Below the pieces are notes generated by a model. The model saw only the letters and a list, made by a program, of their open reading frames with translations. It had not been told where the DNA came from and did not search any database. Below, one piece after another: positions 414-11,372 of a stretch of 53,916 nt of DNA. Source of the stretch: Candidatus Gugararchaeum adminiculabundum. Its GTDB lineage: Archaea; Micrarchaeota; Micrarchaeia; Burarchaeales; Gugararchaeaceae. The stretch spans positions 1-53,916 of the forward strand of contig CABMDC010000016.1 of assembly GCA_902384795.1 (NCBI GenBank). Reading direction: 5' to 3'. Position numbers and translations under genes: made by a program. Positions within the stretch are counted from its first letter, which is position 1, and every line of letters starts with the position of its first letter.

Positions 414-1499
414 TTAAACCAACTTTGAAACTCCCTGTATTAAGTACGTGCTGTCCCCGCCCAGAATCGGCGTTGCCGCGCGCACGAACATTATGGTGAT
501 TGCAAGGATTATGAAAGGCTGGATCACATATTCCATGTAGAGCATGGGAATATCAGCGCCTATGCGCGTGTACAGCGGGTTCACCGCGTTGGCCTGCTCG
601 AATCCTTTTTTCAAAAGCCTGTCGGCCCCGCCCACGTCCCCGTAGCACGCTTCGTTGGGATTGAACCCGAGCAGGGTCGAGGCCGAGCCGATTTGGGCGA
701 CGGTCGTCAGGTTGAAAGTTGAGACCATGAAAAATACCGGGTAGACGATGTAGAAGCCGATGGCGATCGCTATCAGGAGCCCTCCGATTCCGCGCGTGAG
801 CGGCAGGATTCTCAGGATTATTCCGAGCGGAAGCAGGATGTTCAGCATGGAATTCTGGACAATCTCAATGAGCGTGAGTTCCGCATCCATGACTATCTGC
901 AGCTCCGAAAGCTTCCAGTTGATGAAGTGCGCGCGCTCAACGGTCGGGTGCAGGTCCCAGCCGCAGTACATCTCGACCCCGAAGAAAATCACGCACGAAT
1001 GCTCCGCGGCCTCGATGGGCGCGTTTGCCGCGAGCACCTGCATGTATAACATTTCAATGCGTATTTTGGCCTTGTTGATTTTATCGTGGACAGGGGTGTA
1101 GGGCGAAACGCCGGATAGGGTGTTTTCACGGGTTACTGCGCCGCTGCTGCACAAATCCGGCTGGGTCAGGCAGATGGATTGGAAGACCACTGTGGAAATT
1201 ATTGCAATCAGGAAAATTACCAGGAAGCCGGACGCGACCGCCTGGAGCAGCTCCCCCTGCGCCCATCTTTTCAGGGTGTCGTTCTGGATGATGACCGAAG
1301 CCATGTAAACCAGCGAAACGAAAAAGAAGCACGCAAGGACCGCGAGCAGGGCAAAGCCCATCCAGTCATAGGTGCCCCCGATTTGCCAGGCATCGGAGAG
1401 GCTGGGCGAGGTTGAGGTAGGATTAACCTGGGATGCGGCCAAAGCTGCGAACGCTAGCAAAATGAAAAACGACAATGCAAATGTTTTTTTCAGTTCCAT
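414..1499 (-). CDS. Array membrane protein 6 (polytopic, signal peptide, LLPLG motif)
   Basis: The 361-aa product has an N-terminal signal peptide, then a TM segment followed by the family motif YMASVII...RWAQGE, a second TM, and an outside loop of about 100 residues with four cysteines (residues about 110-190). Next comes the paired helix LLPLGIILRILPLTRGIGG with IAIGFYIVYP, and a C-terminal TM ending in FVRAATPILGGD. The same blocks recur in the five genes upstream, so this is a member of a tandem paralogous family. The ATG at 1499 follows a long A/G-rich leader holding the 54-bp repeat. The function is not recognised. A VirB6/TrbL/CedA-like membrane channel component is a guess from topology alone. 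Confidence 0.85.
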   Translation of the reverse strand: MELKKTFALSFFILLAFAALAASQVNPTSTSPSLSDAWQIGGTYDWMGFALLAVLACFFFVSLVYMASVIIQNDTLKRWAQGELLQAVASGFLVIFLIAIISTVVFQSICLTQPDLCSSGAVTRENTLSGVSPYTPVHDKINKAKIRIEMLYMQVLAANAPIEAAEHSCVIFFGVEMYCGWDLHPTVERAHFINWKLSELQIVMDAELTLIEIVQNSMLNILLPLGIILRILPLTRGIGGLLIAIAIGFYIVYPVFFMVSTFNLTTVAQIGSASTLLGFNPNEACYGDVGGADRLLKKGFEQANAVNPLYTRIGADIPMLYMEYVIQPFIILAITIMFVRAATPILGGDSTYLIQGVSKLV

Positions 1500-1562
1500 T
1501 TTTTCACTTTTTCATTCATTTTTCTTTTTTCATTTTTCCGTTTCTCTTTTTTCATCTTTTCC

Positions 1563-1616
1563 GTTTTCTTTCTCTCCATTCGGGGTCTCTTTCTTTTTTA
1601 AAGAAAGAGAGGCTGA
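1563..1616 (-). repeat. 54-bp intercistronic repeat, copy A (perfect match to copy B)
   Basis: The minus-strand sequence is identical over 54 bp to the plus-strand sequence at 32891-32944. It starts directly after the TGA (1619-1617) of array gene 5 with TCAGCC. It then has a hairpin with 10-bp arms (CTCTTTCTTT and AAAGAAAGAG), then CCCCGAATGGAGAGAAAG, and runs into an A/G-rich leader ahead of the ATG at 1499. Confidence 0.95.
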
Positions 1617-2534
1617 TCACACCATTTGCGCCAATCTCGATATGTCAACTTCCTGGCCGAGCATCGCTGAAAGCTGGCGCGTGAAAATTATGATTACCAG
1701 GAAATTCAGGGCAGGGAGGAAAACATTGGCGATGAAGAAAACCGCTGCATAGGTATAGGCCGTATTGCTCGTGGATTTCAATGCCGTGTAGGACAGGCCG
1801 AAGAAATTGCCGATCATCAGCCCGTTCAGGACTATCAGGAACGGGTAGAGCAGGAACAGGCCGATTGTTATTGCGATCAATGCGCTGCCGAACCCCCGCA
1901 GGAATGGCATGGAGCGGAAGAAAGTCCCGAGCGGCAGCAGTATGAGCAGTGCCCCGATTTCCAGGTATTTGAGGACCCATAGCTGGAACAGGACAGTGAA
2001 CAGGCTTAGCTGCAAACTGCTCATTGCCATGGTGAGCGCGCCGATGCGCGAGTATAATCCGGCGCCGGGCTGGATGGAATAGCCTCCCTGGAAAATGCCG
2101 CACAGGATTATGCATTTGTACTCGGATCGGGTCGCCTGCTTTTCCTGCTCGCCCACATCCGCCCGCACCATGTCGTAAAACACATAGTTCAGGTTTCTCA
2201 TTGCCACCAGCTCTTTTGTGGCGGCATCGAAATAGGTGTCACTGGGCAGCACCTTTGCCGAGGCCGGGAACGTAAGGCCTGAGAAAGACATCATATCCCC
2301 GATGTTTGTGCTGCATGCCGCGGTTATGGACACGCTTATCAGCACTATGATCATGGCGGAGATTATCGCCTGGTAGATTTCAAGCCTGCTCCAGGCCGTG
2401 ATGTTCGGGTTGCGGAACATCTGGCCAAGCATGTAGATTGCCGAGATTGCGCAGAAGGTGATGAACATGCCCACTATGGCTAGCCCCTGCCAGTCTGTAA
2501 CGCCGGCTCCCGGAATTGGACACACACCTACCAT
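1617..2534 (-). CDS. Array membrane protein 5 (polytopic, LLPLG motif)
   Basis: About 305 aa, lacking a clear cleavable signal but starting with a TM segment. Family blocks are IYMLGQMF...AWSRLE near the N-terminus, LLPLGTFFRSMPFLRGFGS followed by ITIGLFLLYP in the middle, and FTRQLSAMLGQEVD at the C-terminus. The central loop has two cysteine pairs (CSTN, CIILC). It is the shortest paralogue. Its start overlaps the end of the upstream paralogue: a TTG at 2543 overlaps that stop as TTGA, while an ATG lies at 2534; I chose the ATG. The overlap implies translational coupling. The 54-bp repeat begins directly after its TGA. Function unknown. Confidence 0.83.
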   Translation of the reverse strand: MVGVCPIPGAGVTDWQGLAIVGMFITFCAISAIYMLGQMFRNPNITAWSRLEIYQAIISAMIIVLISVSITAACSTNIGDMMSFSGLTFPASAKVLPSDTYFDAATKELVAMRNLNYVFYDMVRADVGEQEKQATRSEYKCIILCGIFQGGYSIQPGAGLYSRIGALTMAMSSLQLSLFTVLFQLWVLKYLEIGALLILLPLGTFFRSMPFLRGFGSALIAITIGLFLLYPFLIVLNGLMIGNFFGLSYTALKSTSNTAYTYAAVFFIANVFLPALNFLVIIIFTRQLSAMLGQEVDISRLAQMV

Positions 2535-2539
2535 AGTAC

Positions 2540-3700
2540 TCAACCCATTCTAACTAGCGATGAAACATCAACGTCCGCGCCCATTATCACCGCAAACCAT
2601 CGGACGAACGTGAGAGTTATGAAAATTTTCAAAGTCGGCAAAAGCACGGTCAAAATCACTGTGCGGAATACCAGCGGCTCGGAGAAACCCGGTGAGACGA
2701 GATCCGCCACAAAGTTGTTTTCCTGCACCTCGCCCCATTTATTATAGGTGGGCATGTGCACCACGGAAATCGTTGCGCCGCTCGGGTTGTGGGCCACGTA
2801 GTCAGCGAAAATATTGTACTCGACAATCACCGCGACCGGGAAAACAATATAGAAGCCCAATGCCAGCGCAATGAGCAATCCGCCTGCCGCGCGCGTGTAG
2901 GAAAATGAGCGCAGCACTATTCCGAGCGGAAGGAGCAGGGAGAACATCGAGCCTTGGAAAATTTTCAGCAGGAAATATTGCCCTTCCATGGCGGTGAGCC
3001 CGGATGAAACGGCGCTCACCGCTCCGCCCAGCGAGCCCTGGGTGTCGGAAAGATAACGTCCCTCCATTATGGAAAAGCCGCCTGCGGACATGGCGTAGCA
3101 ATAGCCGGAAACGGTGGAAACCTTGCCCACTGTTTCGGAATAGTAAGTCATTTGATTATACTGCGCGGCTAGGTAGGTGATTTGCGATTTGGTGTAGACC
3201 TGCGCAAACTGCATTGCCGAGCCTCCGCCGCTTTCCATTTTGTTTAGCTCGACAGTGGATGTGTCCAGGTCGGCAAAGCCGAGCGAACCGCCATTGTGCT
3301 TGAATTCCTTTGCCGCATCGGCTGCGATTGTTTTGCTGAAAGTGTCCACTCCGGTGACCAGCAGGATGACGAAAACAACGGTGACTGCCACCTGGAAAAT
3401 TTCCTGCTTTGCCCAGAGTTCCAGCATGGGCATTTCAAATCCCTTGCCAATCATGTAGGCCATGGAGATTACTAGGAAGGAAACGATCAATGCCGCAAAG
3501 GCGGTGGCCTGCCAGGGGAGAAAAGCCTGCTCCGCGGTTACCGGCGTTGGCGGTGGAGCCGCGAAAAGCACGGAGGAAACTGAAAGCACCAGGATTAGCG
3601 CGATGAGCAATGGCGCGAGCAGCCGCGGGGCTGCGGCAGGGCGGATTTTCGCCATTTTATTTTTCCTATTTTTTTCGTTTTTTTCTTTTTGTTTTTCCAT
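2540..3700 (-). CDS. Array membrane protein 4 (polytopic, signal peptide, LLPLG motif)
   Basis: 386 aa if translated from the ATG at 3700. This gives a highly charged N-terminus rich in Lys/Glu/Asn; an ATG at 3655 (MAKIRPAAAP) would give a more ordinary signal peptide, so the start is uncertain. A cleavable signal (residues about 25-48) is followed by AYMIGKGF...LWAKQE, an outside loop of about 130 residues rich in Gly/Ser/Tyr/Gln, the paired helix LLPLGIVLRSFSYTRAAGG with ALGFYIVFP, and the C-terminal FVRWFAVIMGADVD. All blocks match the other array members. It overlaps the next gene and lies 15 bp from the previous one, so it belongs to one transcription unit. Function unknown. Confidence 0.85.
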   Translation of the reverse strand: MEKQKEKNEKNRKNKMAKIRPAAAPRLLAPLLIALILVLSVSSVLFAAPPPTPVTAEQAFLPWQATAFAALIVSFLVISMAYMIGKGFEMPMLELWAKQEIFQVAVTVVFVILLVTGVDTFSKTIAADAAKEFKHNGGSLGFADLDTSTVELNKMESGGGSAMQFAQVYTKSQITYLAAQYNQMTYYSETVGKVSTVSGYCYAMSAGGFSIMEGRYLSDTQGSLGGAVSAVSSGLTAMEGQYFLLKIFQGSMFSLLLPLGIVLRSFSYTRAAGGLLIALALGFYIVFPVAVIVEYNIFADYVAHNPSGATISVVHMPTYNKWGEVQENNFVADLVSPGFSEPLVFRTVILTVLLPTLKIFITLTFVRWFAVIMGADVDVSSLVRMG

Positions 3701-3715
3701 GCAACCAACTTCAGC

Positions 3716-6154
3716 TTACAATAATTTCGTGATGCCCGGCAGTTCCGCATCCCCTCCGAGCAGCGGGGAGAAAATCCTGATGAATGAAATTGTCACCAGC
3801 AGGTTGAATAATGGCGCGACCAGGGAAATCACCAGCAGCCTTCCGATCATTGCAATGTCGCTGGAGTAATCCGGAGTGATCGCAGTGCCGGTGAGGCCGA
3901 TGGATGAGGGCGCGTAGTAAACTGTGGCGCCCCCTTTGTTCAGTTCGCTGTCGCCTCCGATGCAGATTGTTTCGCAATCGGGCGAGCCTCTCTTTTTGGC
4001 GGTCCCGACCCCGGCGCAGTCCGCGTCAAATTGGTCATTGGCGCTCTTGGCCGGGTCGCTAAGGCATCGGTCCTGGCTCGGGCAGCAGCCGTCGATGTGA
4101 TTGCCATACCTGCTCGCGCCGCACAGGATGATCGGTGTGGAGTAGGGGATTTGGTTGAGGCAGGCGGCAGGGCCGTGGGAGGTGTCGTACTTGGACCCTG
4201 CTGAAGGGCAGTCCGGGTCGCTGGAAACGGCATTGTTCGGGCAGCAGCCGTCGGGAGTTAAACTGGCAGGGGTGTTCTTACTGCATTTGCTCGAGCAGTC
4301 TGAATCAAACTGTATCTGGGTCGGCGCTGTTGCTCCTGGCTTGGTGATGGATTTGCATTTGTCCTGCGGAACGCAGTAGAAATCATCGGCTGTCCCGCAG
4401 TCCGCGCTCGCAGGAACCCCCTGAATCCTGCAATCGACAACCGGGCAGTCTGGCGAGCGGTACATCTGGTTCACCCTGCAGTCCGCGGTGCATCCGGTAT
4501 GCCCGGCAGCCGGAGCAGTCACTCCGCAAAGCACATCGCAGCACGCGGAAGTATGAGCGCCATTGGTTACGTCAAATTCATGGAGCGCCTTCCCGCTGTC
4601 CTTGTCGCACTGGATATTCATGCAGGATGCGGGCTGGTTTAACGGGTCCCTGCACTCTGTTGGGCAGCCGACCATGACTTTGCCCCCGTTATTGCAGCAG
4701 GGAACTGCATTGGCCATAGAATCGTACTCGCTTCCTGAAAGCTGGGGGGCCACCGCAGGGCAGAGCGCGTTTAGCTGGGTTGCATCCGCAGTGCTGGTGT
4801 CCGCGGCTTCGCGCGAAATGCACCTTTCATCGAAGGTCCAGCTCTTACATCCCTTGCACTGCCAGTTGATTTGGTCCCCAAAGAGCTTTGCAATGTAATA
4901 ATATTGCGAAGTGGAATCCTTGCTTGCGAGGTACAGGTAATCGCATCCATATTGCTCGATGATGCAATTGATGGGATCTTTTGCGAACGGGTCGCACTTG
5001 GTGCTCGCAATGCAATTCACCTGGTTGAAATTCGCACTGTTCAAATCACAGTAATCCGCATTCGGCATGGGAGGTTTTCCTCCTGCCCCGTTTCCTGCCT
5101 GGCAGAAAAGTTTCTGGGTAGTGTCAGGGGGCTTGGCCGGATCGAACGTGAAATCGCTTGGATCAGTTCCGACCTGGGTTTCGGCATTTCCATTGCATCC
5201 GTATTTTTTCAGGTTGCAGGAATCGGTGCACGCGCTCGGGGCGACAGGGGTGAGGCTTTCGCTCACGGTGAAATTCAGGTTAAGCATTATGAACCAGAGG
5301 ACATACATGAGCGGATAGATCACGAGCAGCGCGAGGCCTGTTGCCATCATCAGCCCCCCGAGCTTGCGCGTGAAAAAGAATGTGCGCAGGAATACTCCCA
5401 GCCCGAGGAATATGGGCGCGATGCCTTCGCGGATGTAATCCAAAAACCCGATCTGCGCGTCAATCGAGCCCATTATGTTTATGAGATGCGTGAACACCAG
5501 GCGGTAGCGGTCGGTCCACATGGCTTCGCCAGCCTGGGTCATGGTGCTGAAGCCTACGAACGGAATGTCCGTGTAAACAAGCCCGTGCTTGGTGGAGGAT
5601 GAGCGCGTCTTCTCGATATTTTTGTTGAGGATTATTTCGCCCAGAAGCTTGGTTGAGTCGCTTATCCCTGTCAGGTACTGGCGCGCGATGAGCACATGGC
5701 ATCCTTCGGCATGGCAGCCGGTGGAAGTGCCGGTGATCACATCCGCGAGAATGCTTGCGAAAACCACCAGGTAGGCGATGGAGATTATGATGAGCAGGGA
5801 CATCACCACATGCGAGAATTCATTTTTTGCCCAGAGGTGGATTGCGCGGCTCTGGAAAATGGAACCTGCCATGTAGGCAAGGGATACCAAGAGGAGGGAT
5901 GCCGCGACCGCAATCACTGAAACCTGTTTCCAGGAACCGGAATCCCCGAACAGCTCAAGGAATCTTCCTTCGGTGGTGGTGCATTTATTTTGGAAGCATG
6001 TGCCCTTGCAGCAATCGGCCGCAGTGGTGCACGCGGAAGGATGGCCGGTGGCATCCAATGCCGGCTTGCACTGGACCGTGTCCGCTGCGAGCAACGGGCT
6101 TGACAGTAGGAAAATTGCAATCGCGAACAATGCCAATAGTTTAAATTTTTTCAT
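3716..6154 (-). CDS. Array membrane protein 3 with giant Cys-rich extracellular insertion
   Basis: 812 aa, more than twice the length of its paralogues. After a signal peptide comes a small six-cysteine knot-like segment (residues about 28-58), then the family block AYMAGSIF...LWAKNE, and the central pair FLGLGVFLRTFFFTRKLGG with LLVIYP. Between this pair and the last TM sits an insertion of about 450 residues (about 300-750) with around 42 cysteines, in units such as PCCNNGG, ACCDVLCG, DGCCPNN and GCCPSQDRC. The C-terminus returns to the family pattern (FIRIFSPLLGGDAE). About 50 cysteines in total imply an exported, disulfide-rich domain, possibly adhesin-like or surface-exposed; that role is inferred. 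Confidence 0.85.
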   Translation of the reverse strand: MKKFKLLALFAIAIFLLSSPLLAADTVQCKPALDATGHPSACTTAADCCKGTCFQNKCTTTEGRFLELFGDSGSWKQVSVIAVAASLLLVSLAYMAGSIFQSRAIHLWAKNEFSHVVMSLLIIISIAYLVVFASILADVITGTSTGCHAEGCHVLIARQYLTGISDSTKLLGEIILNKNIEKTRSSSTKHGLVYTDIPFVGFSTMTQAGEAMWTDRYRLVFTHLINIMGSIDAQIGFLDYIREGIAPIFLGLGVFLRTFFFTRKLGGLMMATGLALLVIYPLMYVLWFIMLNLNFTVSESLTPVAPSACTDSCNLKKYGCNGNAETQVGTDPSDFTFDPAKPPDTTQKLFCQAGNGAGGKPPMPNADYCDLNSANFNQVNCIASTKCDPFAKDPINCIIEQYGCDYLYLASKDSTSQYYYIAKLFGDQINWQCKGCKSWTFDERCISREAADTSTADATQLNALCPAVAPQLSGSEYDSMANAVPCCNNGGKVMVGCPTECRDPLNQPASCMNIQCDKDSGKALHEFDVTNGAHTSACCDVLCGVTAPAAGHTGCTADCRVNQMYRSPDCPVVDCRIQGVPASADCGTADDFYCVPQDKCKSITKPGATAPTQIQFDSDCSSKCSKNTPASLTPDGCCPNNAVSSDPDCPSAGSKYDTSHGPAACLNQIPYSTPIILCGASRYGNHIDGCCPSQDRCLSDPAKSANDQFDADCAGVGTAKKRGSPDCETICIGGDSELNKGGATVYYAPSSIGLTGTAITPDYSSDIAMIGRLLVISLVAPLFNLLVTISFIRIFSPLLGGDAELPGITKLL

Positions 6155-6171
6155 GCGTGTGCCACATTTTT

Positions 6172-7224
6172 CTATTCCATCATGCCCGCATCGAATCCAT
6201 GCGATAGCATTTTTGAAAATCCCATTATGAACGAAACCGTGAGTATGATGCTGAGGTTGGGGAAGAAAACCGCCTGGGGAATCAGCCTGCCGATTGCATT
6301 GAAGGGCAGGTACAGGTCCGGGTTCCAGTTTAGGTCGCTGACTATTTTAGCCGTCTGCGCATCCTTTGGATTGTCGATCTCATTGATTACCTGCCCGTTA
6401 ACCACGTAGGTGAGCGGGAATACGATGTAGAATCCGATGGCAACCGCGATGATGAAATCCGCAGTCCCGCGCATGTAGGGAATCAGCCTGAGCACGAAAC
6501 CCAGCGGGAGCAGGTAAACCCAGGCGAATGACTGGATCCCCTCAAGCAATATCCTCTGCACCCTCAGGCTCGCGATCATGGGGATGAGCAAATCGGTTGC
6601 CGCATCCTGCGATTCGGCATATGCCTTTTTCTCCCCGTGGCGCGCTATGCCGCTTCCTCCAAGAAGCGGGGGCGAGGAGTAGGTGAAATCAGTCGCCCAT
6701 AGCCGGTTGTCAAAGCTTCCCTGAACCAGGCTGACCACAAGGGGGACTCCTTCGCGCGAAATCAGCTTGTCCAGGTATTCCTCTGCAACGCAGATGTGCG
6801 ATTTGTCGGAATGGGCGATGGAGGAGGCCGCGGTTGCGAGCGCGACCGAACCTACAACCACTGCGAAAATCATAAGGCCTGACATGAACGTTTCGGAAAT
6901 TTCCGCCTTGACCCAGGCCTCTGCGCCATGGTTCTGGGTCAGCTGGCTGATCATGAAGGCGACTGCCAGGAAAAAGGAAACAAACACCACGGCAATCGCA
7001 AGAAGGGAGGACTGCTCTGCAAAGGAAACATAGGAGGGGATGTCGCATTCGTTCATAACCAGGGGCTTGGTGGAGGCCGCGGTTCCGTAGCCTTGCGCAG
7101 CCACGCTAGGGGCCGCAAAAATAATTGCCAGGAAAATGAACAGCACTGCTGCGAGCGCTGCGGAGTTGCGCTTCCAGGCGCCGGGTTTTTCTTTTTTATT
7201 TTTTTCCATTTTATTTTCCCGCAT
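6172..7224 (-). CDS. Array membrane protein 2 (polytopic, signal peptide, LLPLG motif)
   Basis: 350 aa. A lysine-rich start (ATG 7224; an alternative ATG at 7209) precedes a signal peptide ending near VAAQG. Then come a TM with AFMISQLT...AWVKAE, an outside loop of about 110 residues, the pair LLPLGFVLRLIPYMRGTAD with AIGFYIVFP, and a C-terminal TM with FIMGFSKMLSHGFD, the most divergent version of the terminal LGGD motif. The leader is A-rich (repeated GAAAA units), as in other array genes. It lies 17 bp upstream of the Cys-rich paralogue and 32 bp downstream of the first paralogue. It is part of the same operon by spacing. Function unknown. Confidence 0.85.
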   Translation of the reverse strand: MRENKMEKNKKEKPGAWKRNSAALAAVLFIFLAIIFAAPSVAAQGYGTAASTKPLVMNECDIPSYVSFAEQSSLLAIAVVFVSFFLAVAFMISQLTQNHGAEAWVKAEISETFMSGLMIFAVVVGSVALATAASSIAHSDKSHICVAEEYLDKLISREGVPLVVSLVQGSFDNRLWATDFTYSSPPLLGGSGIARHGEKKAYAESQDAATDLLIPMIASLRVQRILLEGIQSFAWVYLLPLGFVLRLIPYMRGTADFIIAVAIGFYIVFPLTYVVNGQVINEIDNPKDAQTAKIVSDLNWNPDLYLPFNAIGRLIPQAVFFPNLSIILTVSFIMGFSKMLSHGFDAGMME

Positions 7225-7256
7225 GTTTTCAGCTCATTTTCCGATTCCTCAAGCCA

Positions 7257-8441
7257 TCATACTATCTTGAACAAACCGATGATGTTCGTGTCCCCGCCGA
7301 TCATTTTCGAAATGTTTGTGATGCTGGTGACGGTTATGAAAATGCTGAGTATTGGGAGTATGAAAGTGATGGCCGAAATCCTTGCAACCGCCGGAAGGAC
7401 GCTGTTTGCCAAGGGCCAGTAAACCTGTGAAACGCTGATGTTGGCGTACGCTATGAGCGTTGGAACCGCGGCGATAAGGAAGCCCATGCTGAGCCAGTTG
7501 AACCAGACCATCACTCCCGCATGGCAGCCCCAGAAGCATATCCAGAAGTGCGGGCCCGCGCACTGGGGAATGCACTTGATCAGTGTCCACAGCCACTGGC
7601 CGAGCGAAATCATGAACTGCATCGTCTGGTCGCACATGTATTTCGGAGGCGGCGGAAGGTCCTTGGGAAGCGCGACTGCGCTCGGGTCGATTCTCGGGAC
7701 AGAGTAGTAGATGTTGCCTGCGAGCACGACCGTGAGCGGGAATACGATATACATGCCGATGGCAATGGCGATGATTGTGCTTCCCAGCTTTCTTGTGATG
7801 GAGAATGCGCGCATCAGGATTCCCAGCGGGAGCAGGAACCGGAACGCGTTGTACTCGAAAATTTTCAGGAACAGCTTTTCAGCGGTGTTGAATGCGACCC
7901 CGTTGGAAAGAGCGTTCACACCCTGGGAGACTCCGATGGAAACCAGGGAGATTCCGCCGCTCGGGGACATGGAAAAAATGCCTGCCACATACCAGCCCGG
8001 GGTCGCTATATTATAGCTGAAAGTGGTGTATTTGACAAGAATCTTTTCCGCCTCAAGAAGCCGGAGATACATGCGAGCCATGTAATCGCTGGACTCGTCG
8101 AGATAGGCATAGGCCATTTTGAAATAGTTTCTTACCTCGACGGTTGAACCGAACACGGTCGCGGACTGGGAAACCGGGGCGCCCATTGCCGTTGGAATCT
8201 GGGCGGCGTATTGCTCGTAGAACAGGCTCCCGAAATTGTCGGCCAGGGGCACGATTAGCGACGCAAGAAGCGAAACCAGGAGTATGCTTATCACTGCCTC
8301 GCGGAACTCGACTTTTGCAAACGCCTCCAAATGGGGGCTTTGGAATATCCTCGAAGCCATGAAGGAGATGGCGACAACTAGGATAGAAACCATTGAGCAC
8401 GCAAATGTTAATGGAAGCCATGCCGCTAGTAAATCCGCCAC
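7257..8441 (-). CDS. Array membrane protein 1 (polytopic, LLPLG motif), first gene of the array
   Basis: 394 aa from a GTG at 8441, preceded by a G-rich SD-like stretch. It lacks a separate signal peptide; the first TM carries SFMASRIF...AFAKVE, the weakest match to the WAK.E block. A loop of about 140 residues leads to the pair LLPLGILMRAFSITRKLGS with AIGMYIVFP. Then comes an extra Cys/Trp-rich loop (CDQT, CIPQC, CFWGCH; about residues 270-310) and a final TM with SITNISKMIGGDTN. As the most upstream paralogue it probably follows the operon promoter, which would lie between it and the multi-hairpin element at 8500-8603. Function unknown. Confidence 0.85.
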   Translation of the reverse strand: MADLLAAWLPLTFACSMVSILVVAISFMASRIFQSPHLEAFAKVEFREAVISILLVSLLASLIVPLADNFGSLFYEQYAAQIPTAMGAPVSQSATVFGSTVEVRNYFKMAYAYLDESSDYMARMYLRLLEAEKILVKYTTFSYNIATPGWYVAGIFSMSPSGGISLVSIGVSQGVNALSNGVAFNTAEKLFLKIFEYNAFRFLLPLGILMRAFSITRKLGSTIIAIAIGMYIVFPLTVVLAGNIYYSVPRIDPSAVALPKDLPPPPKYMCDQTMQFMISLGQWLWTLIKCIPQCAGPHFWICFWGCHAGVMVWFNWLSMGFLIAAVPTLIAYANISVSQVYWPLANSVLPAVARISAITFILPILSIFITVTSITNISKMIGGDTNIIGLFKIV

Positions 8442-8499
8442 TCACCAACCCCCTTTATCCGAGAATACTTTATTCGAGCTATTAAAAAACCTATCTGCT

Positions 8500-8603
8500 G
8501 TGATGGCGCCGCCGATATGGCGGTTGCGTTCTGGAGAACGCAAGTCTGCCCTCGAAGCAGACCAATCGTGCTTCGAAGCACGATTGCCGCGGCGCGCCAT
8601 CAC
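8500..8603. other. Multi-hairpin element: closed by a 10-bp stem and filled with four hairpins
   Basis: Bases 8500-8509 (GTGATGGCGC) pair perfectly with 8594-8603 (GCGCCATCAC). Inside are four hairpins: 8510-8522 (CGCC/GGCG, 5-nt loop), 8524-8543 (TTGCGTTC, loop TGGA, GAACGCAA), 8544-8562 (GTCTGC, 7-nt loop, GCAGAC) and 8563-8586 (a 24-nt perfect palindrome, CAATCGTGC stem around TTCGAA). The last three abut with no linker. It could be a structured RNA, a MITE-like element with terminal inverted repeats, or a cruciform-forming site. It sits in the 187-bp gap between two minus-strand genes. No coding potential is evident. Confidence 0.85.
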
Positions 8604-8628: not shown

Positions 8629-9432
8629 CTAATTCAACGGGGGAGCTGCCACATCCTTTACCACAAACCCGGGCGGGACTTGGAAAATGGAATCCGAGAA
8701 ATCTGCGAAGGTCACGTTTTTTGCCTGGATCACCGCAGAACCGTATTGGGTGTCCACCTGCATTTTGAGGATTATACCTTTTTCCTTCCAGACCCAGGCG
8801 GTCACTGTTTCACTGGAAGAGGGGTTTGAATACTCGTAGACTTCGGTGGGCACTCCGAACAGGTCCCTGGTGCCGAGGTAGGTTTCCTTTCCCTCTATTT
8901 TTGCCCCCTGGGCATAGGTTTGCGGGTTCGGGTCGCTGAGGCGCGATGCCGTCTTTTGCTCGGAGTTCAGGAAATAGACCGTGCCGTTTTCGCTATCGAT
9001 CAGGGTCACCATGTTGGACTGGTATTCGCCCCAACCGCCCATGGACTCGCGCCTTGTCTTGTTTCCCTTGACAAAAACGCGGGCGCTGTCCATGTCTATG
9101 CCGTTCATGGAAATCACCTCGTCATAGGAGAAGGAGGTGAAATTCCTGGAAAGCGCGGCATCTATCTTATAGTCCTGCGCCCCCTGCTCGTCCGTGGGAG
9201 TGGCGCCCGGGAAAACCGGGGTCGGTGAGCCAGGGGATGAAGAATTTGCATTGGTGCCATTCGGGCCGCTTGTGATGTTCGAACTTGCATTGGGCAGGAT
9301 TGAGAACGGCGAGGCTTCCAGGTCAGGATTGTACTTGCCGGGCGAGTCCGGAGGAGAGACGAAATAGTTAAGGCACCCTGCGGAGAAGAGCGAAACTGCA
9401 AGAAGCAGGATGAGCAAGGCGTGTTTTCCCAT
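8629..9432 (-). CDS. Secreted lipoprotein, LolA-like or DUF-type fold possible
   Basis: 267 aa from the ATG at 9432, ahead of which no stronger start is seen. A hydrophobic signal ends in LFSAGC, a lipobox, so Cys near residue 20 is probably the membrane anchor. A low-complexity Asn/Ser/Pro/Gly linker (residues about 30-85, with many N-x-S/T sites) leads to a beta-rich domain with alternating hydrophobic strands (SFSYDEVISMNGIDMD; VTAWVWKEKGIILKMQVD). That layout resembles LolA/LppX-type outer-leaflet lipid-binding proteins, but the match is only impressionistic. It is divergent from the pilin-like gene at 9494 and upstream of the array on the same strand, separated from it by the multi-hairpin element. 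Confidence 0.75.
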   Translation of the reverse strand: MGKHALLILLLAVSLFSAGCLNYFVSPPDSPGKYNPDLEASPFSILPNASSNITSGPNGTNANSSSPGSPTPVFPGATPTDEQGAQDYKIDAALSRNFTSFSYDEVISMNGIDMDSARVFVKGNKTRRESMGGWGEYQSNMVTLIDSENGTVYFLNSEQKTASRLSDPNPQTYAQGAKIEGKETYLGTRDLFGVPTEVYEYSNPSSSETVTAWVWKEKGIILKMQVDTQYGSAVIQAKNVTFADFSDSIFQVPPGFVVKDVAAPPLN

Positions 9433-9463
9433 TTTTCCCACAAACAAACTTCAGCCAAGAAAG

Positions 9464-10098: not shown

Positions 10099-10683
10099 TT
10101 AGCCCAGTTTGGCCAGTTTTTTTACTTTTCTTCGGGTTATTTCAGGGCAGCGCTTCAGGTATTCAAGCAATTTTTTCCTGTCCAAATTTTTCCTCAGCCC
10201 TGCGAGCGCTTCATTGCTCAAAGGCTCGTTGAAGTAGGCGAAGTCTATGAGCGTTTTTTCGTTGTCTGAAACCGGAATCCAGAAGTCCTTGTACCTCATG
10301 GTGGTGAAACCGAAAAACATTTTCCTTGCGATTCTTCTGACAACAAAATTTGAGCCTTCAAACTGCCTGACTCCACTTCTCACTTTCCTCGGGGTTAGCA
10401 CAATCGGGTTTGTTTCCTGCTCCCACAGGTTTTTGAGTGAGAGGGCTTCCTGCAACCCGTAATAAAAAGGCGTGAAGCCGAAGCCCACGGTCTCCGATTC
10501 ATCCAGGAAAGTGTAGACTCCCCGGGAAATTTTCTTGATTTCGCCGCTTTTAACCAGGTTGTGGATCAACAGGTACAGGTAATTTTTGCTGATTTTTTTT
10601 GTTCCGAGAAAAACCTGCAAGTCCGAAATGGTGAAAGCAGGAAGGCTGCCAAATTTTTCGCGCACTTCGCTTAGGTACTTCAT
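10099..10683 (-). CDS. AbiEi-like antitoxin / transcriptional regulator
   Basis: 194 aa. Residues about 1-65 form a winged-helix domain (FTISDLQVFLG, then NYLYLLIHNLVKSGEIKKISRGVYTFL). This is typical of AbiEi/COG5340 antitoxins, which autoregulate their operon. The C-terminal half (VRRIARKMFFGFTTM, VSDNEKTLIDFAYF) matches the usual AbiEi C-terminal region with the ekTliD motif. Its ATG overlaps the toxin stop by 4 bp (ATGA). The order is unusual: the nucleotidyltransferase gene comes first, whereas abiEi normally precedes abiEii. The likely operator is the inverted repeat at 11341-11372. The family call is from sequence pattern; neutralising activity is inferred. Confidence 0.82.
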   Translation of the reverse strand: MKYLSEVREKFGSLPAFTISDLQVFLGTKKISKNYLYLLIHNLVKSGEIKKISRGVYTFLDESETVGFGFTPFYYGLQEALSLKNLWEQETNPIVLTPRKVRSGVRQFEGSNFVVRRIARKMFFGFTTMRYKDFWIPVSDNEKTLIDFAYFNEPLSNEALAGLRKNLDRKKLLEYLKRCPEITRRKVKKLAKLG

Positions 10684-11327
10684 GCGAACCGCCCCTGCAA
10701 AAATTCGACCATTTGTTTAAACGAAGGGATGTTTCCGGAATAAACTATCGCCTTCAGGTTCTTCTCATCAACAGGAGGCTTGATTGATTTGAGAAGCAGC
10801 AGGACCCGCTGCTTTGCCTTAGGTTCGCCTTTGACAAAATTTGAAAGGTGGAAAATGTCGTAAATGTCGCGCACAAATAGCCTGTTGGCGTAGGCATCGC
10901 ATTTTTCCAGAATAAGGTCTTCAGGCGAAAGCGTTAGCACACTCATGAACGAGCCGTCAATTTTTTCAAACGGCTTTGCAACCGGGGGGGCAGGCTTTGA
11001 TGAAAAATTTATCTCAACGCGGACTTGCATGTCAGCGCCTGAAACCTTGCAGAAGATTAAGTTCCCGGTTTTCTTGAACTTGTCAACATTAAGCCCCCGG
11101 GCTTCAAGCCTTTCCTTCAGCCCCTCTTCAACTTTTGTTGCATCGCTGCAATAAAAATCCAGGTCTTCGGAAAACCTGTTGCCACCATAGCAGCGCCAGA
11201 CTGCAGTGCCACCGTGAAAAACCAGCCTGTTTTCCAGGGAATACAAAACTTCCGTTACCTCGTCCTGCAAGAGCCCCACGTCGATGTGTGCCCTTTTCTT
11301 CAACCTCTTCTCGAGCGGGATGTTCAT
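10680..11327 (-). CDS. AbiEii-like nucleotidyltransferase toxin
   Basis: 215 aa from the ATG at 11327; a TTG at 11342 is less likely because the TATA box would then overlap the leader. It carries the polymerase-beta-type NTase signature: HGGTAVWR at residues 38-45 and SEDLDFY at 53-59, with Asp55 and Asp57 as metal ligands. Downstream come the family's ...SPEDLILEKCDAY..R...RDIYDIFHL block (about residues 135-165). AbiEii toxins transfer nucleotides to tRNA or other targets in type IV toxin-antitoxin systems. Translation is coupled to the AbiEi gene through ATGA. Flanking direct repeats suggest the pair arrived as a unit. Confidence 0.85.
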   Translation of the reverse strand: MNIPLEKRLKKRAHIDVGLLQDEVTEVLYSLENRLVFHGGTAVWRCYGGNRFSEDLDFYCSDATKVEEGLKERLEARGLNVDKFKKTGNLIFCKVSGADMQVRVEINFSSKPAPPVAKPFEKIDGSFMSVLTLSPEDLILEKCDAYANRLFVRDIYDIFHLSNFVKGEPKAKQRVLLLLKSIKPPVDEKNLKAIVYSGNIPSFKQMVEFLQGRFA

Positions 11328-11340
11328 GCATATATTAAGC

Positions 11341-11372
11341 AACCAAACATATAAAAAACTATAAGTTTGGTT
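11341..11372 (-). promoter_or_regulatory. AbiE promoter with inverted-repeat operator
   Basis: A perfect 8-bp inverted repeat, AACCAAAC at 11341-11348 and GTTTGGTT at 11365-11372, brackets an A/T-rich core holding a minus-strand TATA-like sequence (TTTTTTATAT). The core lies about 25 nt upstream of the toxin ATG (11327). AbiEi antitoxins are known to bind inverted repeats in their own promoter, so this is a strong operator candidate. Confidence 0.7.

Follow-up and report, generated by a model that had tools for sequence, protein, structure and literature searches.

The self-complementary element at positions 8500–8603 of the window (the whole analysed stretch of 53,916 nucleotides from Candidatus Gugararchaeum adminiculabundum) is very probably an old, end-decayed copy of a dispersed MITE family (non-autonomous DNA transposable elements) of Candidatus Micrarchaeota. 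At the family level, we found dispersed copies, terminal inverted repeats (TIRs), target-site duplication, and a short length without a transposase gene. By these tested defining features, the family is a MITE, as a variant with nested palindromes.

Fold and surroundings of the copy in the window

A sequence-only reading had described the element as 104 bp of almost fully self-complementary DNA with a density of pairs beyond chance, and folding bore this out on both strands and for both RNA and DNA. The RNA fold of 8500–8603 reached −61.2 kcal/mol on the + strand (z −5.9 against shuffles) and −70.0 kcal/mol on the − strand (z −6.5), and the DNA fold had a z of −8.65. No shuffle was as stable in either RNA strand fold or in the DNA fold. 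In the core, the outer stem encloses a bulge on one side only, a junction stem of 4 bp, and three hairpins that abut one another (20, 19, and 24 nt; Table 1). The perfect 10-bp outer stem, the three directly abutting hairpins, and the 24-nt perfect palindrome named in that reading are all present. Apart from this palindrome, no inverted repeat in the whole window is fully complementary over arms of at least 12 nt.

Two details of the reading had to be amended. Of its four hairpins, three stand, while the fourth (CCGCC GATAT GGCGG, 8509–8523) competes with the GCGG/CCGC junction stem. It is this junction pairing, not the fourth hairpin, that is conserved in the family (96.6% of cells), and the stretch preceding it acts as a bulge of 5–7 nt. 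Two loops starting with TTCGA, also described there, occur on the − strand (TTCGAGG and TTCGAA), whereas the + strand has only one.

Table 1. Features of the element copy in the window
Feature	Position	Strand	Remarks
Element core	8500–8603	+	Outer stem, bulge, junction stem, three hairpins; orientation adopted for the family
Covariance model R1 match	8503–8601		93.6 bits, E 6.8e-15; this copy was among the five used to train the model
Possible left TIR remnant	8478–8491	+	GCTATTAAAAAACC; family version GCTCTGTAGAAAACC
Outer stem, left arm	8500–8509	+	GTGATGGCGC; pairs with 8594–8603
One-sided bulge	8514–8519	+	GATATG (alignments A3 and A5); AATAG, AACAG, or AATTG in other copies
Junction stem	8520–8523	+	GCGG; partner CCGC at 8587–8590; kept across the family
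Hairpin 1	8524–8543	+	TTGCGTTC TGGA GAACGCAA; letters vary in nearly all copies, pairing retained
Hairpin 2	8544–8562	+	GTCTGC CCTCGAA GCAGAC; best-conserved hairpin; relatives have GTCTGCCCTCGAGGGCAGAC
Hairpin 3	8563–8586	+	24-nt perfect palindrome CAATCGTGCTTCGAAGCACGATTG
Junction stem	8587–8590	+	CCGC; partner GCGG at 8520–8523
Outer stem, right arm	8594–8603	+	GCGCCATCAC

The ends of this copy are less clear. The possible left TIR remnant had a local alignment score of 16 (p 0.013) with one gap, and the ungapped test was not significant. Comparison of ends and flanks revealed neither a recognisable right terminal repeat nor a target duplication. The window copy thus belongs to the family through its core, not its ends.

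The element is enclosed by two co-directional − strand ORFs (8629–9447 and 7257–8441), and its position upstream of the first paralogue, as previously stated, holds in the sense of transcription. The paralogues form an array of six membrane-protein genes (414–8441, − strand); no Pfam match was obtained for the four that were scanned, and 51 of 60 relatives have homologues, often with several in one genome. An AbiEi/AbiEii-like toxin–antitoxin pair lies near this array (10099–11342, − strand), with AbiEii supported by PF08843 (E 4e-22) and AbiEi_4 below the cut-off.

Copies, ends, and target-site duplications

Using covariance model R1, which was built from five copies, we detected about 48 copies in six genomes: about 17 in the genome that contains the window and about 31 in five other Micrarchaeota genomes. 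The carriers represent 6 of the 301 genomes of the phylum scanned with the model. Among the relatives, G006 had about 12 copies, G001 about 6, and G003 three; the remaining 12 genomes of the order had no R1 match. The class-wide and phylum-wide scans added only two further positives, G081 (seven copies and one larger) and G093 (two copies). Plain BLAST recovered only the window copy in its own genome, with no second full copy; its partial matches elsewhere in the order fell in Candidatus Micrarchaeota WY4.bin88, where the loci fold alike. The idea of a single-copy oddity was thus rejected, as the covariance model gives about 17 copies where BLAST saw one. Copies in other phyla were likewise dismissed: two bacterial matches to the hairpin-2 pattern (Reyranella and Synergistota) were chance palindromes in unrelated sequence. 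The viruses, phages, and plasmids searched contained no copies.

Insertion sites differed between genomes. The copies were mostly intergenic, lay in both orientations beside different genes, and were present in all gene arrangements. Such a patchy distribution, combined with insertions beside different genes, is the pattern of mobile elements. Within one genome, nearly identical copies were found (up to 96% identity). One intergenic site was shared, by G006:C11 (L117) and G093:C22 (L164), whose genomes belong to two different families. The orthologous genes on either side encode proteins that are 79% and 55% identical and that, by eye, resemble subunits B and D of a V-type ATPase. We rejected this single shared position as evidence of conserved function: by rough reckoning, chance alone would give about one such site, and the copies there are of different subtypes.

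Full copies were bounded by the TIRs GGCTCTGTAGAAA...TTTCTACAGAGCC, which were seen in G000, G003, G006, and G081. In 13 copies, both ends were within three mismatches of GGCTCTGTAGAAA. The flanking 8-mers of these 13 copies agreed at 62 of 104 positions, compared with 32.0 expected, and none of 5000 shuffles of the right flanks among copies reached so high a value. Perfect target duplications of 8–9 bp were present in five copies (GAGAACAA, GTTGCTTT, AGTTTTCGA, CATACTAC, and GATAAATCT). Together, the TIRs in 13 copies, the matching flanks, and the perfect duplications identify a MITE-type mobile element. The sequence-only reading had raised a MITE with TIRs as one possibility and had suggested searching for further copies and target-site duplications; both were found for the family, and for the window copy there is at most the left-TIR remnant.

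The full copies span 145–319 bp, which is too short for a transposase gene. Most copies in the window's own genome had no clear ends, and given this, some other route may have let the core spread or persist. In copies that lack TIRs, the folds extended into the flanking DNA, so that ends defined by the stem gave no information on target duplications. In G006, a variant end-like sequence, (G/A)GCTCTGTCGAAA, occurred four times (C58:9128, C92:510, C93:18756, and C56:6407) without a paired inverted copy.

Covariation and maintenance of the palindromes

The sequence-only reading had also proposed a covariation search in related genomes, and compensatory changes were indeed found. Across 22 cores with three hairpins, pairing was kept in 96.0% of pair cells, and 33 of 39 pairs had changed on both sides. 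Double-change cells numbered 206, compared with 56 in shuffles, and shifting the pairing partner by one base lowered pairing to 25–34%. Fitting this alignment to the model is expected to introduce some lean, but the MAFFT alignment A3 agrees with it. Hairpins 1 and 3 were only about 48% identical between copies, against 71% in unpaired columns, yet 97–99% paired (47.5% identity with 96.6% paired for hairpin 1; 48.7% identity with 99% of cells paired for hairpin 3). All six modelled pairs of the outer stem showed two-sided changes across copies. The apices were mostly YCGR and chiefly TCGA (44 of about 117).

Only 12 of 816 standard pairs (1.5%) were G.T. Structured RNAs usually hold many more G.U wobble pairs, and selection on RNA normally proceeds via G.U intermediates. 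From the rarity of G.T pairs and the low sequence identity of hairpins 1 and 3, we infer that a process at the DNA level, and not RNA selection, keeps the palindromes. Covariation is not diagnostic for RNA here, as maintained DNA palindromes are expected to give the same signal.

These observations bear directly on the proposal of a new structured RNA, in which a non-coding or cis-regulatory, riboswitch-like multi-branched structure is selected on the transcript. The very strong covariation on which it relies was found, along with constant hairpin lengths and a conserved one-sided bulge and junction, and by our own count about 10 of 13 clean insertions between co-directional genes are antisense to the genes. 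However, the copies have no common neighbouring genes except at the one coincident site in two genomes, they carry TIRs and target duplications, and Rfam gave no match above the gathering score. The hairpins are perfect palindromes right to the apex, and the G.T frequency lies below what structured RNAs usually show. With scattered sites and rare G.T pairs fitting a mobile DNA palindrome better, we regard an RNA selected on the transcript as unlikely.

Still lower probability, and about equal to one another, attaches to two other accounts. A role unconnected with mobility, as an insulator or a terminator of transcription between two genes, would agree with the position of the window copy between co-directional genes and with a run of six U (8491–8486) that follows the hairpin on the transcribed − strand; the scan, however, scored no intrinsic terminator-like site there, a single hairpin would be enough for such a role, the copies are found whatever the gene arrangement and vary in length, and the TIRs and target duplications elsewhere would be left unexplained. 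A recombination or integration site for an integrase, either an attC-like folded single strand or a protein-binding cruciform, recalls the folded strand with its asymmetric bulge, multiple hairpins, and conserved TCGA apex. It is very improbable in view of copies that lie dispersed one by one, none seen in a cassette array, and of 8–9 bp target duplications typical of DDE transposition.

For the MITE family, we propose the following scheme. A full copy is ordered GGCTCTGTAGAAA, arms, core, arms, TTTCTACAGAGCC, covers about 145–320 bp, has no transposase gene of its own, and gives 8–9 bp of duplicated target at insertion, as the sequences show. It would be moved by a DDE-type transposase that acts in trans and recognises the terminal repeats. 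Once the DNA is single-stranded, the core palindromes would open into a multi-branched hairpin. The palindromes change fast and in both arms together, so that pairing stays nearly always Watson–Crick; the most likely cause would be a DNA-level process in which one arm is copied onto the other by foldback and hairpin modules are exchanged between copies. The folded form might also be selected during mobilisation. The window copy would now be passive between its two co-directional genes, and any possible effect on the transcript (termination or processing) would be secondary.

Tentatively, the hairpins might be kept perfect by single-stranded foldback copying during replication or transposition, which would yield symmetric mutation, module exchange, and added hairpins (from three to about nine in G081:C24). 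In G081, young copies that are otherwise up to 96% identical differ in hairpins 1 and 2, which were swapped whole, as symmetric blocks. If foldback copying is correct, the family would be a palindromic mobile element of DPANN archaea that elaborates itself.

G081 also contains the largest complete form, a 319-bp element whose TIRs are intact and whose many perfect hairpins form a tree (G081:C24:24960–25278, L165). A 450-nt stretch comprising this copy and its flanks folded at −203 kcal/mol. This copy suggests the stepwise addition of hairpins. Three further G081 contigs (C36:1–300, C37:1–300, and C4:48680–48850; L157, L158, and L166) stop within a still longer version with several extra hairpins, and this long repeat version appears to have broken the assembly.

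Transposase partner and comparison with known elements

No autonomous partner with the same ends was found in the six carrier genomes, which are draft metagenome assemblies of the kind from which insertion sequences are often lost, so that this absence is weak evidence. The IS6-type DDE transposase (PF13610) was absent from G000, G001, G003, and G006 and was not listed for G081 or G093, and the IS6-type transposase loci of sampled class members had no ends like the family TIRs. An IS4/IS5-type DDE_Tnp_1 (PF01609) occurred once each in G000, G001, and G006, and was rejected as the partner, as its surroundings showed no matching ends.

IS6 elements have an end consensus with a G dinucleotide at the tips and cTGTt and caaa motifs, generate 8-bp direct repeats, and include MITEs of 227 and 336 bp (PMC7986276). 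The family resembles IS6-family MITEs in its ends (GG-nn-CTGT-nn-AAA) and 8-bp duplications. It differs in that PF13610 is missing from the carriers, some duplications seem to be 9 bp, and the interior is a hairpin tree. We did not file the element as IS6-derived.

In behaviour, the closest analogues are REPINs and REP elements, which are likewise dispersed extragenic palindromes that fold as single-stranded DNA hairpins. The REPIN spacer conserves length and pairing while its sequence changes, with compensatory changes (PMC3116915). REPINs, however, are REP doublets with proposed Y1 (RAYT) transposases, whereas the full Micrarchaeota copies have conventional TIRs, 8–9 bp duplications, and four-way hairpin cores. 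As read from the copies, the duplications indicate DDE-type insertion, as opposed to Y1 for REPINs. The M1/M2 repeats of Pithovirus are also highly folded, intergenic, and MITE-like, at about 140 nt, with a transposase that is not known (PMC10664404); unlike the family, they belong to giant viruses, their TIRs are long and simple, and the duplication is TA; there is no known sequence relation. Fungal mitochondrial double-hairpin elements and palindromic mobile repeats are described as mobile and almost all hairpin (cited in PMC7218506). They are organellar, and we place them beside the family as a parallel case by that description, with no demonstrated relation.

We found no description of Micrarchaeota elements of this kind in the open-licence literature, and the family is apparently undescribed. 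Archaeal MITEs have been little studied, and a review of prokaryotic MITEs makes no mention of DPANN archaea. The family offers a natural system for testing how genomes retain perfect palindromes and how these diversify. Covariation of textbook strength in mobile DNA also calls for caution in covariance-based RNA discovery. The cloverleaf-like fold can moreover yield false tRNA annotation: ARAGORN called a tRNA-Arg(acg) inside one element copy (G000:C1:12382–12465; L104 1483–1566).
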